In this document: piece after piece, positions 4,558-56,011 of the stretch
Numbering within the stretch: position 1 is the first letter of the stretch
How the letters are laid out: every line of letters starts with the position of its first letter
From: Sycon ciliatum
Lineage: Eukaryota > Porifera > Calcarea > Leucosolenida > Sycettidae
DNA length: 64,000 nucleotides
Assembly: GCF_964019385.1 (NCBI RefSeq)
Contig: NC_088643.1
Location: 186,001-250,000, forward strand
Reading direction: 5' to 3'
Notes under the pieces: model-generated
What the model was told of the DNA's origin: nothing
Database searches by the model: none
What the model saw: the letters and a program-made list of their open reading frames with translations, nothing else
Translations under genes and position numbers: made by a program

Positions 4558-5091
4558 CCCGTATAAAAACCGCTCTGTGAGCGGTTCTGAAAAACCTCTA
4601 CTGGTGTAGCTCCGTCGTAAAAGTAAGAAAACCTCTACTGGTGTAGCCCCGTCGTAAAAGTAAGAAAACCTCTACTGGTGTAGCCCCGTCGTAAAAGTAA
4701 GAAATTAGAACTGGCGCATTGTCTTCCCAAATGTGAATTGATCCACCTAAATCGCGATCGACGGTACCCGAACGCACACGTAGCACGAGGTCGGGAAGGC
4801 ACAGGATCACAGCAATGGGCCGACGCCGTCGCTGATCAAGTAACAGTTACCATACAACACTTACAGTACCCCGAAGCCCACCTTTGGCTTTGGCAATGGA
4901 CCAGCGTCCCCGGCTGCATCCACAGGTAGGAACCTCGTGCTACTGGTGCGTTCGGGTCCCGTCAATCGCGATTTAGGTGGATCAGTTCACATTTGGGAAG
5001 ACAATGCGCCACTTCTAATTTCTTACTTTTACGACGGGGCTACACCAGTAGAGGTTTTTCAGAACCGCTCACAGAGCGGTTTTTATACGGG
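4558..5091. mobile_element. Foldback element with long inverted arms and TA target
   Basis: The left arm starts CCCGTATAAAAACCGC and the right arm ends with its exact complement; TA flanks both sides. The arms stay complementary for about 165 bp, through ACCTCTACTGGTGTAGC and CGCGATTTAGGTGGATC. A hairpin (AACCGCTC, loop TGT, GAGCGGTT) sits at each tip. The left arm has three tandem ~47-bp units (about 4589-4702) where the right arm has one. The central ~140 bp is unique. No transposase is present. Confidence 0.82.
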
Positions 5092-8075: not shown

Positions 8076-8865
8076 TGTGTATTGCAGGGTTGGGGTGGGC
8101 TAGTAGAGAAGAGTAGATGTATATGGACATGTACATAAGATATGTAGGTGTGCATGTACATGCACCAAAGCAAACTTATCAAAAAGGCATTTTGCGCCTA
8201 TATGGCGAAATTGAGCATTGAAGCATATTTTTTTTTCTCATTGGCATGTACACAGTTAGTCCATTCAATAACCAAAAAATGAGGAAGATTGTAAATCAGG
8301 TTCTTGATGAAATACCCGTCCGCTATACATCACAAATCCTGTACAAATTTGACAATTTAGTGAAATTATCATCGCCTATATCTCAAAAGTTAGCATTGAG
8401 ACCCCGTTTTTTAACTCGCCATTTGCATACACTACCTAAGAGCAACCGCCCACCAAATTTTCAGAGCAATCGTTAATTTTTTTGAAATAGGCGTGAGCCA
8501 CCTTAACTCCAGATTTACGTGCTCCATTCAGCGCTTGTTACAGTAATGGACAATTGATATCAATATTTTACACTGCCTGCACCTAGCAGTAACTCTTCAC
8601 TCTTCACACTTCACGCTTTCTTTTTGTGCGCCTTGCTGTGTAGTTGTGTATTTCTTTAGTGCCTGTGGACCTGACAGCCCTGCTTTAGTTAGAAAAGTTG
8701 CCTGACGATTGAAAGACTCAAGAAACTCGGAGTAGCAACGGATTGTGTTTTCTTGGTGAGGACCGCTTCCATTGTATATATATATATATATATTAACTGG
8801 TTTGAGGGAAAGAGACAAACGGGAAAAGTCTGAAGAAAAAATTGACTGTCACCACCAGGACTCGA
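8076..8865. other. No gene; short shared block among AT microsatellites
   Basis: No gene was recognised. A ~46-bp block (8794-8840, starting ACTGGTTTGAGGGAAAG) next to (TA)n is repeated at 56205-56249 next to (TTA)n. Confidence 0.4.
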
Positions 8866-9125: not shown

Positions 9126-11265
9126 TCAGTCCGGTTGCAGCTTGAACAGCCGCAGCACCTTGATGTGCTTCTTTTGTCGACACAGCTCTGGCCTCAAACT
9201 GCGAATGTACAGCGCCTCCAGTGTGAATCTGTGCGCGCTGTTCTGGGCTGGTGTGATGACACTGAAGCTGCTGTTGCGCTCCTGCGGGATGCATTCAGGT
9301 TGCGCCTGCAAATGCTTTGTGATGGCGCTATCACTTGTTGCCACACGTTTGTCAGGCGGCTTCTTGTACAGCTTGTCTGGGATATGCTGCTTGATCCTTT
9401 CCGAGAATCGCTGACATGTCTCACCAACGTACGTCCGCTCACAGCGACACGCATACTTATAAATAAAATTACTATTTTCAAGAGTTGGTGAAACATCCTT
9501 CGCGATAGACCTGAATGCGGGCCTGGTTGTATAAATTACAATGGGGGATACTGTAGGATAGCAGTTCAAAATTGCAGCTTTAATCTTTTTGCGGAAGGCA
9601 ATGCAATTTTGCCCTTTCCACGGCAATTTTGTGATAATACGCGTTGCAGGTTCAAGTTGTGCAGAAGCTGTGTCTGGGCTGGGTTCAAGAACGCTTGTCA
9701 TGACTCGCTTGAGTACTTTGAGTGGGTAACCGTTAGAACACAGAATATCCTCTAGCTTAGCAATTTCAGCTGATAATAGTGATGGTGAGCAGATGGTTCT
9801 AGCTCTGAAAGTTAATGATCTGATCAAATTGATTTTGTTTCTAGTGTCACAAAACGAGTCCCAGCGGGTGTAAAGACCTGTGAACTTCGGCTTTCTATAT
9901 ACTGTGGTGAGCAATTCTGTGGAAGAATGCTGAATCAATACATCAAGAAACGGCAATTCTCCATTATTCTCCTCCTCCATTGTAAACTGGAGAGCTGGGT
10001 GAAGATTATTTAAACGCTCAGAGAATTCCAATGCCAGTTTCCGGTTGTGAAATGCTGCGAATGTGTCATCCACATAACGCCTATAGAATTGGGGCCAATG
10101 ACTGTCTGGAATTGTGTTCTCAAAATATCCAACAAAGATATTGGCTAGCACGGGGCCCAAGGGTGAACCCATGGCTACTCCGTCCCTCTGTGCGTACATA
10201 TTGCCATTGAAACTGAACTGCACGTCCGATGTGGCTTTGAAAAGCAGCTTCTTGAAAAGATCTTGGGGTATTTGCGGGGCTGATATTTCATCATCATGGT
10301 ATAGCGACTGTATGCAGATGTCCATTGTTTCTTTGAGAGGCACGTTTGTAAAGAGGCTGACTACATCGAAAGAGCACAGGAACAGCGATCCAGAGTTCTC
10401 TGCCTGCTGCTGACCAAATTCCCTTACATCATCCACGAACTCGAAGGTATCCTTGGTTGCGTGGGCGGAATATTTATTCAGGACTGGATTTAGTAAGTCA
10501 GCTAGCCACTTGGCCATTTCGTGTTGGGGAGCATTGATCATGGACAGGATTGGTCTAAGTGGCACATCTTTCTTATGTATTTTCGGTACGCCATAGAGCA
10601 CAGGTCGGCACGAGCCAACGGGTCGGATCCGGTCGTAATCTATATTGAGTATTTTTCCAGCCTTTTTGTATCGCAATAGGTATGCCTGCAAGGCGCGTTC
10701 ATCCAGGTAAGTGCGGTCATGCGTTTCCGTCGGTCCCAGGAGTTGAAACTTCGATGCATCAGCCAATATAGCATTCATCTTGTCATTGTAATCACTTCGC
10801 TGCATTATCACCACTCCATTCCTTTTGTCCGGCCTGCTGATTATTATATCTTTGTCATTCTTTTTTTTCCTGATGGCTGCCATATGCTTGTCGTTGAGGG
10901 GATAATCGGTTTTATCTGCTTTACTGTTACTAAACTCTTCTGCAAGATTCGCCAACGCTGCTTGGCACGTATCCTTCTTGGCATCACTCACTGGTACGCA
11001 GCGCTCCAATTGATCATTTGTTAGTTCGAATTCTGCCTGCACAATCTCCTTGTCCATTTTGGAACTAGGGGGGGGGGGGGACTCCAAACTTCAAGCCCCT
11101 GCACAGTACGTCTTTTTCAATATTAGTTAGCATAACTCCGGCCAAGTTGAGTAGGTGGGAGTGTTTCAATTCGCTTGAGCCCTTCTCATAGCGCACCTCC
11201 CTCCTGAGTGCATCGTCAAACTTACTTTTGATCCGGCATTGTAATCTGGAGGAGGTATCCCCCAT
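9126..11265 (-). CDS. Penelope-like reverse transcriptase/GIY-YIG endonuclease (frameshifted)
   Basis: The main frame (653 aa from 11087) carries reverse transcriptase with YVDD near residue 337, GSPLGPVLANIF before it, and a C-terminal GIY-YIG endonuclease starting near residue 536 (FIYKYACRCERTYVGET) with the cysteine pair typical of this clade. The true start is upstream: MGDTSSRLQCRIKSK at 11265, in a frame offset by one base and joined across a 13-G run (11068-11080). A homopolymer slip or sequencing error there explains the break. The product copies the element RNA at the endonuclease nick. Confidence 0.88.
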
Positions 11266-11324
11266 TGTAATTTATACAACCAGGCCCGCATTCAGGTCTA
11301 TCGCGAAGGATATTTCACCAACTC

Positions 11325-11693
11325 TTGAAAAATAATAGTAATTTTATTTATAAGTATGCGTGTCGTTGTGAGCGGACGTACGTTGGTGAGACATGTCAGC
11401 GATTCTCGGAAAAGATCAAGCAGCATATCCCAGACAAGCTGTACAAGAAGCCGCCTGACAAACTTGTGGCAACAAGACTTAGTGATAGCGCCATCACAAA
11501 GCATTTGCAAGCGCAACCTGAATGCATCCCGCAGGAACGCAACAGCAGCTTCAGTGTCATCACACCAGCCCGGAACAGCGCGCACCGATTCACACTGGAG
11601 GCGCTGTACATTCGCAGTTTGAGACCAGAACTGTGTCGACAAAAGAAGTACATCAAGGTGCTATGGCTGTTCAAGCTGCAACCGGACTGACAA
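11325..11693 (+). CDS. Penelope-like GIY-YIG endonuclease domain, truncated copy
   Basis: This open 121-aa frame matches the last ~120 residues of the neighbouring element with few changes (SEKIKQHIP for SERIKQHIP, an added RLSD). It has no reverse transcriptase and is the coding part of the 5'-truncated inverted copy. It has no evident promoter. Confidence 0.8.
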
Positions 11694-11876
11694 CTTTATC
11701 ACGTGTTTGTTCTGGTACTGCATTCCCTTCATGTGTTGTTTCCCGCATTTTTCCACTGCTCCATACATTCTTTTGGTAGTGTAGTGTGAACTTGAGGCGC
11801 GTAAGAATATTCTTGCTGATTCTCTACCCCCAGTATAAATTCTGGCTCCGTTTTCGTTCTTGCTCATTCCCATGTA

Positions 11877-11909
11877 ACTACTGATGAAAATGGGTGAAAA
11901 GCTTTTAGT
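11877..11909 (+). ncRNA. Hammerhead-like motif in the inverted Penelope copy
   Basis: A second copy of the motif at 8907-8939, with the same core CUGAUGA and GAA, palindromic AAGCUU helix III and ACUA/UAGU stem I. Confidence 0.42.
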
Positions 11910-11950
11910 ATTATGAAATTGACAACCTTGTTGTTGTGTGTATATACATT

Positions 11951-12181
11951 TTGTTCGCCTACCTCTCTATTTAAATTTCAATCTCTGTTCTCTTCTCAAC
12001 TTACAAGTGTGTTAGATTTGCGTTATTAATGAATATTCCGGCAGGTAAAGAGATGATGTCATTAGCCTGAAGGTCCCTACAAAGAAAGAAGAGGCAATAC
12101 CCTGTAAGGTACTTTCTCATAATAGAACAACACACATTACTGGTGTAAATGTAAACCTCCTGGTTTATAAGTTAGGGTACT
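11951..12181 (+). repeat. Left half of a dispersed repeat split by an insertion
   Basis: It matches the left part of the intact copy at 17497-17995 up to TTATAAGTTAGGGTAC. The right half resumes at 14782. Confidence 0.75.
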
Positions 12182-16887: not shown

Positions 16888-17109
16888 AACTAACTTACTT
16901 TGGCAGATCCTTTGATCCCGTGTAGACGTGCAAAAACGATACAAACCGAGACCACTTCGGACCAGCTTTGATCGTGTAAACGCACGAAAACGAAAGAAGA
17001 AATGCGGGACTGAAAACGGAAAACTGGCCGTGCGTTGTCGTGTAAACGCAGCCTTAATATGTGAAGAAGAGGTTGGTGCGACTTAGGCAATACTTGGGCA
17101 ATTGTGTGT

Positions 17110-17405
17110 TTCTCCCTACATGGGAGCTTGCGCTATTCCTGCCGACTAGAATTCTCACTTGCCTGACACACAACTGCCATCCAGAGTAAACGAGAAGTCC
17201 ATAGAACCTTCCAGTCGGCAAACCTGCAAGAAAGCACCATCCCTACTCAATACACAGTGTTTTGGGAAATTCAAACCTCATCAGTTGAGCTTGAGTAGGG
17301 TGATGAAGATTGTGCTTGAAGAGCACCACTCTCCAGGCACCAACATCACCAGGGCTACAAACTCACAGAGACGCTCCATTTCCAGCGCAAAATTTAATAT
17401 GGCAT
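17110..17405 (-). repeat. Hammerhead-bearing dispersed repeat, degenerate copy
   Basis: It matches 40806-41115 over about 300 bp (GCGCTATTCC, ACTGCCATCCAGAG, CGGCAAACCTGCAAGAAAGC, CAGAGACGCTCC). It encodes no protein. Its ribozyme core is damaged. Confidence 0.75.
17245..17290 (-). ncRNA. Degenerate hammerhead motif
   Basis: It keeps stem I as GCUCAA with UUGAGU, core CUGAUGA, helix III ACAC-U-GUGU and A before the second stem I strand. Helix II has lost pairing and the GAA core reads AAA. It supports the better copy at 40955-41000: stem I there has a U-G pair where this one has C-G. Confidence 0.5.
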
Positions 17406-40180: not shown

Positions 40181-40805
40181 TTGCTAGCAGTCCTCCCACC
40201 AAGGCTTGAGCCCCGTGACGCCACTCGCACTCGAAACGATCTCCGCATGGCCGCCGGCCACAGTTACCAGCTACGAAATCCGCTACCGCGTCAAGCACCA
40301 GACACCATTCTCCGCAGCTTCCCACATTGTGCAATCCAGCTGTGGAATTCCCTGCCGCCAGCTTTTCTAGACTCCGCCCCAACTCGCAAAAATCTTCAAA
40401 GGTTTAAGTGCAACGTCAACAAATACCTCCGCCGACAGGATCGGCGATGTTCCACGGACATTCTGCCTGTCGACCCACCTACATTCTAGTGCCCCGTCAA
40501 CGACTCCCATTGCTACGAATGCGCTGCACACCAGTACTAGCTGTTGCTTGCCCTTGCTTTCTTTTTATTTTTGCTGACCCTTATAGCTCTATCTTTTGTT
40601 TTTGGTGCGTGTTTCTGGCCGTGATGCCGAGACCTCAGGTCGGCAGAGCCATCAATGCCCCACCATCACTGCTGCACCTCGGTGCAGCCCCTTCTCAGTA
40701 GTTGTCACGTTTGCCCTTGTCTCAGTACCATTGTCTTCTGTAATATTTATGAGTTGGGTATGTGAACATAGTAAAAAAAAACAAAAAACATACATGTACA
40801 TGTAC
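40178..40805 (+). mobile_element. 5'-truncated LINE 3' end
   Basis: It encodes the ORF2 C-terminus (RTRNDLRMAAGHSYQLRNP, TILRSFPHCAIQLWNSLPP, NVNKYLRRQDRR) with a stop at 40487. The 3' UTR has hairpin GCC-GA-GACC-TCA-GGTC-GGC (about 40624-40642) and an A-rich tail near 40770. Same family or a near relative of the LINE at 27.6-36.5 kb. Confidence 0.75.
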
Positions 40806-41385
40806 AAAAAAGGGTTTGCTCCCCACACCGGAGCTCGCGCTATTCCACCACCGACTTTACTTGACACTTGACTGACTCACGACTGCCATCCAGAGCACAC
40901 GAGAAGTCCATCGAACCTTCGACTCGGCAAACCTGCAAGAAAGCACCACTCCCTGCTCAATACACAGTGTTTCGGGGAATTCACCCCTCATCAGTTAAGC
41001 TTGAGTAGGCTGAGGAATATTGTGCCCGAAGAGCACCACTTATATAGTGCTCTCCAGGCACGACCATCACCAGGGATACAAACTTACAGAGACGCTCCGT
41101 TTTCAGCGCGACAAACACCTCGTGAGCACCAGATAGCAGCGTGAGTCAGTGTCGCTCCTGGACGGTGAGACAGACGTCGAGGACCCTCGGTCATTCGCAA
41201 CGCTGTCACCTCCAAACCAACTAGTCGCAAGCCCGCGCTGGGCACAACAGTACGAAGTAGTGGTTGCGACCTCGGCGATGATTTGTAAGAAAAGGGTTTG
41301 CTCCCCACACCGGAGCTCGCGCTATTCCGCCGACTTTACTTGACACTTGACTGACTCACGACTGCCATCCAGAGCACACGAGCAC
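40806..41385 (-). repeat. Hammerhead-bearing dispersed repeat, one full and one partial tandem copy
   Basis: The unit beginning AAGGGTTTGCTCCCCACACC occurs at 40806 and again at 41290 in the same orientation, a period of about 484 bp; the second copy is cut at the inverted-repeat arm. The unit carries a hammerhead motif on the minus strand and no ORF. Tandem hammerhead units without coding capacity resemble animal retrozymes or pseudo-LTRs of Penelope-like elements. Confidence 0.65.
40955..41000 (-). ncRNA. Hammerhead ribozyme, well-formed
   Basis: Minus strand in order: stem I GCUUAA; core CUGAUGA; helix II GGGG, loop UGAAUU, CCCC; core GAA; helix III ACAC, U, GUGU (palindromic, suited to dimers); A as cleavage-site base; stem I UUGAGC (pairs GCUUAA with one U-G). 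All core bases match the hammerhead consensus. A degenerate sister at 17245-17290 keeps stem I pairing by a U-to-C change. Confidence 0.72.
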
Positions 41386-41485
41386 TATGTACATGTACAT
41401 GTATATCCATTAGATCACCATTGGTCACAGACTGCTCTATTCATTTCTAACTCTTTTCTAATAGGCTTTATAGATGTCACATGTA

Positions 41486-41915: not shown

Positions 41916-42765
41916 TTTATTATTTTGATAGGGAAGGCCCTACAGACGTTGCCGTCTTGTTACAGGGAACCCTAAGTGCTCTTTACAGAGCGAAACGAAA
42001 ACGGATAGATGGTCAACCTGACGACACGAGACAGGTCACCAATATATTTGTACAGTTGTCGGTGTATGCATTTTAGTTACGTATGTACAGTAATGGATAG
42101 TTGCAGTAGATCCGATTTTATAATTCACCTTTGAGGCCCTGAAGTTTATTTGTTTTCAGTCAAACTTGGTCAACCAGTCATACGTATCGGATATGTTTAT
42201 ATCCAGCAGGAATTTTGTCAAAATATCGCATAGTTCTCCTGTAAATTTGAATTAACTGATTTGTTGCCATGGCAACCATCATCAATTCTTTCCACCTTCA
42301 TTGCATGACCTTCCCGATGGAAATTTTGATTGAATGGCATACCATCTTGCAGCATTTTGAAGATACTTGACATTCAAATCGAAAAAAAACTTGGTGCCCT
42401 CTTACCCGGAACGAAACTTCAAAAATAATCCCCCTGGCCCCCAGACTAAAACTGTTGCACTGTACTCTTCAATGTAGTACATGCATCTGCGTGATCCACC
42501 CAGTCCAAATGAACACTAAGGAAATTTAGAACCGAACGTTCTGTTCCCATACTGGCTACTTTGTACTACTACCATACTTAGATTCTTTTCACTCTTAACT
42601 TTCTTTTACACTGCTTTCACATCATTGCGACAATACAATCACTCTTACACCCTTGCACCCTTGCTGCTATTGTAGTTTTTGTTACCTCCAATCACGACAG
42701 TGAAGCTTTGTTTGAGCACATGTATTAAAAAACTGTATTGTTTATTCACCTGTAAGTCGATGTAG

Positions 42766-42803
42766 GTTCACTGATGAGCATCGAAAGAAAAACGTTTATG
42801 AAT
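42766..42803 (+). ncRNA. Hammerhead-like motif, weak
   Basis: Stem I GUUCA with UGAAU, core CUGAUGA, short GCAUC for helix II, core GAA, helix III AGA...UUU, A before stem I. Helix II has a single closing G-C pair, so this may be decayed or chance. Confidence 0.3.
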
Positions 42804-43032
42804 CACATTTTTAAACAAACGGCGAGGAGACAATAATTTGATAACCGCAATCAATAAGACATGCCGAATCGACATGTGTGTACACTTTATTCATGCAATG
42901 TAAAACGGTCGAGACAATGTGCAATAAAACGATTTGTTGTTGTTGTTGATTTTTATTTTGCTTCGCAAGGCCAAACGGGCAATGGTGCCCAATTCTATGG
43001 AAGCGAATTTCAAAAGGGAGAGAGCTACGGGG

Positions 43033-54027: not shown

Positions 54028-54064
54028 GATTCAAACAAGTTTCGTACAACACTCATCAGGAATC
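54028..54064 (-). ncRNA. Hammerhead-like motif, inverted partner A
   Basis: Minus strand: stem I GAUUC; core CUGAUGA; helix II GUG, loop UUG, UAC; core GAA; helix III region ACUUGUU (one A shorter than partner B); U; stem I GAAUC. All core bases are present. About 90 bp around it is repeated inverted near 55938-56028. Confidence 0.6.
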
Positions 54065-55133: not shown

Positions 55134-55330
55134 TCGAAGAAGGATAGATTTACCATCACTGTGGATAAGAGTCATGCTGTAGCTCAGTTGGTTAGAGCAT
55201 TGCTCACGAATAGCAAGGTCCCTGGTTCGAGTCCTGGTGTTGTGACTGATGATTTTTCTTTCTTTCATATCTGGCTTGCAAGTGTTGAGTTTCGGAGAGA
55301 AAATACATAGAAAATCTAAGTTAGAGAAAT
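55134..55330 (+). mobile_element. SINE family B, tRNA-headed copy
   Basis: Leader, then a tRNA-like region 55174-55247 with a perfect anticodon stem TTGCT/AGCAA, loop CACGAAT (apparent anticodon CGA but A at position 33), and T arm around GGTTCGAGTCC. The body ends after TTTCGGAGAGAAAATACATAG, a different 3' end from the minus-strand copies. Confidence 0.72.
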
Positions 55331-55973: not shown

Positions 55974-56011
55974 GATTCCTGATGAGTGTTGTACGAAAAC
56001 TTGTTTGAATC
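55974..56011 (+). ncRNA. Hammerhead ribozyme-like motif, inverted partner B
   Basis: In order: stem I GAUUC; core CUGAUGA; helix II GUG, loop UUG, UAC (3 bp); core GAA; helix III AAC-UU-GUU, nearly self-complementary, better as a dimer helix; U as cleavage-site base; stem I GAAUC (5 perfect pairs). All conserved core bases fit. The downstream GAATCCTTATTTTCTCTAC also recurs beside partner A. Confidence 0.68.

Follow-up and report, generated by a model that had tools for sequence, protein, structure and literature searches.

Non-long terminal repeat (non-LTR) retrozymes of animals are described in PMC7229834 as gene-less tandem repeats that carry a type I hammerhead ribozyme, occur in many copies, and have no LTR features, in genomes where Penelope-like elements (PLEs) co-occur and with target duplications of more than 4 bp. 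The passages of PMC7229834 and PMC7761336 that treat their spread propose circular RNAs as templates, as a hypothesis, and PLEs as candidates for the machinery; in the corresponding part of PMC7761336, the animal repeats are said to show no motif that would tell their autonomous partner. We analyzed a 64,000-nucleotide stretch of the genome of the calcareous sponge Sycon ciliatum (NC_088643.1, positions 186,001 to 250,000; here called the window and numbered from its first letter), which holds a hammerhead motif at 40955..41000 on the minus strand inside a repeat that we call repeat A. Repeat A shares each of the features listed above with the animal retrozymes. We consider it a non-autonomous non-LTR type I hammerhead retrozyme that is mobilized by a PLE from a probably circular RNA, and we give this reading a probability of about 0.72. 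The original prediction for this locus, made from the window sequence, had named a retrozyme or a Penelope pseudo-LTR, and the former fits best.

The integration of repeat A can be compared with that of the purified Anolis PLE (Poseidon). In the experiments described in PMC11167929, this element cleaves AT-rich DNA at ATT and extends the two strands, with reverse transcription beginning at two adjacent internal RNA sites bounding the genomic tail. As far as that account goes, Poseidon and repeat A have in common AT-rich or ATT targets, extension of both strands, tandem copies, a hammerhead, and two adjacent start sites bounding a tail of 30-40 nt. Unlike the Anolis element, repeat A has neither a reverse transcriptase nor an endonuclease, and its two arms use different start sites within one insertion, whereas in PMC11167929 the start site did not differ between the strands. 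Repeat A forms inverted arrays of two arms whose 3' ends lie at two fixed sites, a layout that does not appear in the passages of PMC7229834 on animal retrozymes. The minimal PLE hammerheads that PMC7761336 depicts have a shorter helix III than repeat A. The satellite hammerheads of newt and axolotl (Amex1/2), in the portion of PMC7229834 devoted to them, likewise have a short helix III suited to dimers and tandem units, theirs of 330-350 bp; by description only, repeat A differs in lying in dispersed insertions, over half of them beside (AAT)n. Plant LTR retrozymes also build on the notion of mobile RNA circles produced by hammerheads but, as PMC7229834 and PMC7761336 outline them, differ from repeat A in their type III hammerheads, in their LTR features, and in having Gypsy as a partner.

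Hammerhead and unit of repeat A

Read from 41000 to 40955 on the minus strand, the motif consists of GCUUAA (stem I), CUGAUGA, GGGG-UGAAUU-CCCC (helix II), GAA, ACAC-U-GUGU (helix III), A as the cleavage base, and UUGAGC (stem I), which confirms the order of the core elements and the helix II and stem I of the original prediction. With the core CUGANGA ... GAA ... H, three helices, and the open end at stem I, we classify it as a type I hammerhead ribozyme (family A) on its sequence, its match to a covariance model, and its genome copies. Self-cleavage is predicted between 40961 (A) and 40960 (U). Helix III had been proposed to suit dimers, and its nearly palindromic stretch could indeed pair between two molecules, but the one-base loop cannot close as had been drawn, and the monomer form would have 3 bp with a CUG loop. 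A motif scan for the core and three helices gave 3 matches in the window, whereas 20 Markov sequences of window length together gave 2. From the same genome we took seven hammerheads belonging to families C, D, and E (described below) and built a covariance model on them, leaving family A out, and its best window match was exactly 40955-41000 on the minus strand (28.8 bits, E of 2e-6), at full length and with every pair standard. Pair counts in the alignment of the hammerhead families lean towards pairing, because the scanner that picked the sequences required it.

The 40-nt core was found at 4964 places with at most 3 mismatches in the 538-Mb genome, 2791 of them exact, versus 0 places for a reversed-pattern control; the count covers places within this distance. 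Among these places, the loss of the core from most copies that the original prediction had named as its refutation is not seen. The 15 commonest 46-nt ribozyme forms in the fetched units make up 100 copies, and 77 of these have the majority form. A decayed relative of repeat A at 17109..17388 on the minus strand, 84% identical to the family majority by sequence comparison, includes a sister ribozyme at 17245-17290 that has lost the G of GAA and kept the stem I pair, as had been claimed. The U/C difference between the two stems is a pair-keeping polymorphism and not a compensatory change, because C is the family majority and the U of the window is the rarer state (77 versus 7 copies).

In arrays not used for ascertainment, the ribozyme differed from the majority at 3/314 places, versus 127/2704 in the rest of the unit, and in other units of loci L001-L008 (L numbers denote genomic loci that we fetched) the differences were 6/522 in the ribozyme and 138/4155 elsewhere. 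We set aside a figure of 11/920 versus 361/6932 as biased, since the matches by which its loci had been chosen span the ribozyme. A 186-base stretch of the unit matched at 100% at 36 places, the window's included, among 40 candidates scored of 454, and many of these places stand in series with a spacing of 479. Judged by these comparisons, the hammerhead motif is under constraint, and the gene-less family in which it lies is recently active.

Each unit of repeat A carries one hammerhead and no gene and has a G+C content of 0.539. The window has a full unit of 482 nt at 40808..41289, delimited by the tandem spacing, and a second, 5'-truncated unit in tandem at 41290..41382, both on the minus strand. 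These are flanked by a 14-nt repeat, TACATGTACATGTA, at 40791..40804 on the left and at 41390..41403 on the right, a possible target duplication in simple repeat. The host repeat had been estimated at about 300 bp; the unit is about 478-482 bp, most often 478 or 479 bp (19 and 14 of 56 spacings), and the spacing of about 480 bp between tandem starts, which had been noticed, is one unit of the tandem. The unit end bears TTTT.

Ends, targets, and template of repeat A insertions

We sampled 42 arrays with 155 segments. Loci L001-L028 were taken from the best 41 matches, and L037-L046 and L047-L053 were picked for close-lying copies, a choice that makes the sample lean to young, tandem copies. L045 duplicates L009 and was therefore omitted from all counts, and L004, where the array is truncated at the edge of the locus, does not enter the end counts. 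Two-armed inverted arrays with the RNA 3' ends outward made up 28/42 sampled insertions, at least one whole unit was present in 36/70 sampled arms (the longest had 7.3 units), and one insertion was nested inside another in L042. The inner (5') ends were unevenly placed, with 18/70 at unit positions 108-141, possibly a reverse-transcription stop or a transcript start.

The outer ends fell at two sites about 35-40 nt apart. The SHORT (S) end is about the unit end, ...CCCTTTTCTTAC, and the LONG (L) end lies at unit positions 35-47, mostly 39, ...CTACTTCGTA. Script calls on the 25 two-arm arrays with S or L ends gave 21 LONG+SHORT, 4 SHORT/SHORT, and 0 LONG/LONG. When read by eye, the four SHORT/SHORT arrays (L016, L027, L037, and L044) showed a LONG tail that was divergent or had 3 extra bases, which brings LONG+SHORT to 25/27 two-arm arrays. 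If 25 long and 25 short ends were paired at random, 25/25 mixed pairs would arise with a probability of about 3e-7. In the window's own copy, one side shows a SHORT end and the opposite side is 5'-truncated, and a second arm is not confidently discernible. Had the arms arisen by fold-back, the two ends should be equal, and this was not seen.

(AAT)n or its permutations stood within 26 bases of 23/42 arrays, versus 38/2879 random places in the same loci. Shared flanks of 12-15 bp were present in L003, L006, L008, L010, L017, L019, L024, and L039, target duplications being recognizable only outside plain simple-repeat flanks. Repeat A thus shows the Penelope integration signature of two sites bounding a tail, an AT-rich target, and priming on both strands. 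Family E, with a 352-bp unit, has ends at about 272 or about 311 and one of each in 6/7 arrays, a count in which L050 was not judged.

We compared units at 25 family-level variable sites, where both bases were present in at least 4 arrays each. Discordance was 30/1975 within arms and 22/1023 between the arms of one insertion, versus 9431/37740 between insertions (4000 sampled unit pairs), or 1.5-2.2% within an insertion versus 25% between insertions. Among 606 array-sites with at least 2 units, 22 were mixed and 78 were fixed for the rarer base, and a looser or stricter choice of sites (33/840 and 18/345 mixed) left the picture unchanged. A variant born in one unit is found in all units of later insertions; therefore, each round of insertion seems to pass through a single unit. 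The cleavage site was crossed without an indel by 108/108 segments, and only 1/70 inner ends fell within unit positions 327-333, as chance gives (7/482 of 70). A linear self-cut monomer would instead end at the cleavage site that all these segments cross. For a one-unit template without ends a circle is the simplest reading, and the template was therefore probably a one-unit, endless, circular RNA. The array in L014 has 350/10958 private differences (3.2%) yet is discordant at only 12/511 inherited sites, which makes later homogenization unlikely. The same template test on family E gave discordances of 17/433, 18/451, and 2106/5755, the same result as for repeat A.

Putative Penelope-like elements and other hammerheads

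The window also contains an open reading frame of an autonomous element, PLE-1, at 9126..11090 on the minus strand, which was assigned from a Pfam match to the reverse transcriptase domain only (RVT_1, E of 2.2e-10) and from two-site ends of copies elsewhere. PLE-1 has at least 68 matches in the genome. The ends of its copies lie at two sites separated by 29 nt, and in 4/8 PLE-1 loci fetched (L029, L031, L032, and L034, the last with a more complex layout) both ends were visible, one of each kind. A second, inverted partial copy of PLE-1 lies beside the main one at 11320-11960 on the plus strand, in a two-armed layout. A hammerhead of a further family, F, stands at 8696-8740 on the plus strand (GUUGC-CUGACGA-UUGA/UCAA-GAA-ACUC/GAGU-A-GCAAC), and its relatives in L034-L036 have GUGC/GCAC as helix II instead. 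We dropped the assignment of this hammerhead, at 8702, to PLE-1 because it lies outside the PLE-1 end.

A second element, PLE-2, encodes a protein with 43-46% identity to that of PLE-1 over the main stretches. From their layout, their ends, and motifs read by eye, among them GIY-YIG, which we take to be a mark of such elements, PLE-1 and PLE-2 appear Penelope-like, although Pfam does not firmly support the name; a PDB search with the proteins was uninformative (the best match was a reverse transcriptase, E of 0.0048). PLE-2 frames lie within the 9.5-kb surroundings of repeat A in 5/20 contexts (L009, L012, L022, L023, and L027). In L012 and L025, the 3' region of PLE-2 bears a hammerhead of another family (B) between the frame and the (AAT)n end, and in L012 repeat A stands beside PLE-2 as a separate insertion. 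We considered template jumping as the origin of these A/PLE-2 mosaics and dropped it; (AAT)n terminates both sides in L012, so that a shared target explains the neighborhood.

Two hammerheads of the PLE-2 type (family B) occur in the window at 54028-54064 on the minus strand and 55974-56011 on the plus strand, inverted and about 1.9 kb apart, and their model matches were weak (E of 0.018 and 0.13). A weak match to the hammerhead model was also obtained at 42765-42804 on the plus strand (16.1 bits, E of 0.021), with helix II unpaired. At least three more hammerhead families were encountered, namely, C (226-bp unit), D, and E, in L011 (3700-4540), L015 (6317), L016 (1594), and L026 (7000-7800). 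In all, 255 kb of 36 loci contained 79 motif matches, family A included, versus 0 in 5 Markov sets. One family E copy (L026, 7412-7455) passed Rfam RF00163 (Hammerhead_1) with 34.6 bits versus the threshold of 34, and no other hammerhead scored above threshold when seven loci with copies of families A, B, C, D, and E were scanned with Rfam. tRNA-like sequence was present by the hammerhead repeats in L026 (5150-5781, repeated at 282-bp spacing), L011 (5463-5530), L015 (6981-7048), L036 (1115-1182), and the window (55173-55245); it could represent a further non-autonomous family.

Origin and spread of repeat A

The motif, tandem units, two arms, S and L ends, target preference, duplications, and single template per insertion are read from the genomic copies themselves, and from them we infer ribozyme activity, a circular form, and a helper of the Penelope type. 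In this scheme, a tandem array would be transcribed and its hammerheads would cut the RNA into one-unit pieces, which would then be closed into circles. A Penelope-like protein from another element, most likely one that targets (AAT)n such as PLE-2, would cut (AAT)n or AT-rich DNA in a staggered manner, as the flanks and the 12-15 bp duplications suggest. The 3' end of each cut strand would prime reverse transcription on the RNA, one at S and the other at L. Copying would run past the sealed ribozyme site, for at least one unit in 36/70 sampled arms, and so produce tandem units, and the joining of the two copies in the middle would yield an inverted two-armed insertion. More tentatively, and with odds that we place somewhat below even, a Penelope dimer may hold a single ribozyme-made circle for each insertion; its halves would each bring one 3' end of the staggered break to one of the two start sites, 35-40 nt apart, and both would copy around that circle, often for more than one turn.

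Several observations weigh against the retrozyme reading or its parts. The Rfam 15 models gave no hammerhead match in the window at the gathering threshold or in two loci of it that were searched, and none at the repeat A locus even with E up to 10; the model check that the original prediction had suggested therefore favors the motif with the covariance model from the same genome and not with the curated ones. The minimum-energy RNAfold structure of the window copy is not the hammerhead, its energy is ordinary (z of -0.72 and -0.08 for two cuts), and in the shorter cut a CUCAA/UUGAG pairing takes the place of stem I. The units, at 478-482 bp and a G+C content of 0.539, exceed the 150-450 bp and less than 50% given for animal retrozymes in the pertinent passage of PMC7229834, a descriptive range and not a mechanism. 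In the experiments recounted in PMC11167929, the Anolis PLE gave no reads ending at the cleavage site, and the ribozyme need not be required, because hammerhead mutants of that element still inserted in vitro. An end away from both sites was seen in two of the 27 two-arm A arrays (L026 and L046) and in one of the seven family E arrays (L052). For the helper, Pfam gave no GIY-YIG match in PLE-1 up to E of 10, and in PLE-2 both RVT_1 (E of 1.3e-5 in L012 and 4.7e-4 in L027) and GIY-YIG (weak, E of 0.047 in L012 and 0.086 in L027) fell below the cut-off. PLE-1 ends are followed by (AT)n and not (AAT)n in 9/11 shown, and the link between repeat A and PLE-2 rests on a target common to both in a few loci.

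The same element and PLE machinery might instead copy a linear multimeric transcript, with the hammerhead incidental or acting at another step. Such a template would explain why the 108 segments examined run through an uncut site, but the variants of a source array should then arrive mixed, and 22 mixed array-sites of 606 stand against 78 fixed for the rarer base; the L014 array, in which private differences persist while inherited sites agree, points the same way, and we regard this alternative as unlikely. We find it harder still to accept that repeat A is a pseudo-LTR or a deletion derivative of an unsampled autonomous Penelope-like element. The Penelope-type ends, the hammerhead, the tandem arrangement, and the PLE-2 frames near repeat A in the five loci named above would all suit such an origin, which was the other half of the original prediction; that half holds for the likely machinery and not for membership, as the 3' region of PLE-2 is its own and bears another hammerhead, repeat A is a separate insertion in L012, and in 20 contexts of 9.5 kb, which represent a small fraction of the copies, A units never enclosed a frame of at least 180 amino acids.

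If repeat A were satellite DNA, with unequal crossing-over and gene conversion homogenizing units and arms that had already inserted, the tandem units and their high identity inside arrays would follow; the target duplications, the dispersed places, and the S and L ends would not, and neither would the agreement at inherited sites in an array with 3.2% private differences, so that we hold this origin to be very improbable. A chance match or a dead fossil, to which we give hardly any credence, would agree with the Rfam result, with the ordinary folding energy, and with the old copy at 17109-17388, where the ribozyme enjoys little protection (5/46 differences versus 41/248 elsewhere). It is opposed by the match to an independently built model, by the thousands of intact copies, and by the smaller number of changes in the ribozyme than around it. 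The retrozyme reading, with PLE machinery and a circular template, is the one that we prefer.

Neither a two-site end rule nor a one-template test for retrozymes was announced in the titles and abstracts that we searched, which does not establish their absence from print. Our findings suggest what the pair of start sites observed in vitro may be for: if the circle-and-dimer scheme is true, PLEs would have two of them to provide for both DNA strands, and the task of the hammerhead would be to make an endless template. The Penelope-type signature, together with the mark of a one-unit template, would make the questions of the helper and of the circle testable from genome sequence in other species with retrozymes.
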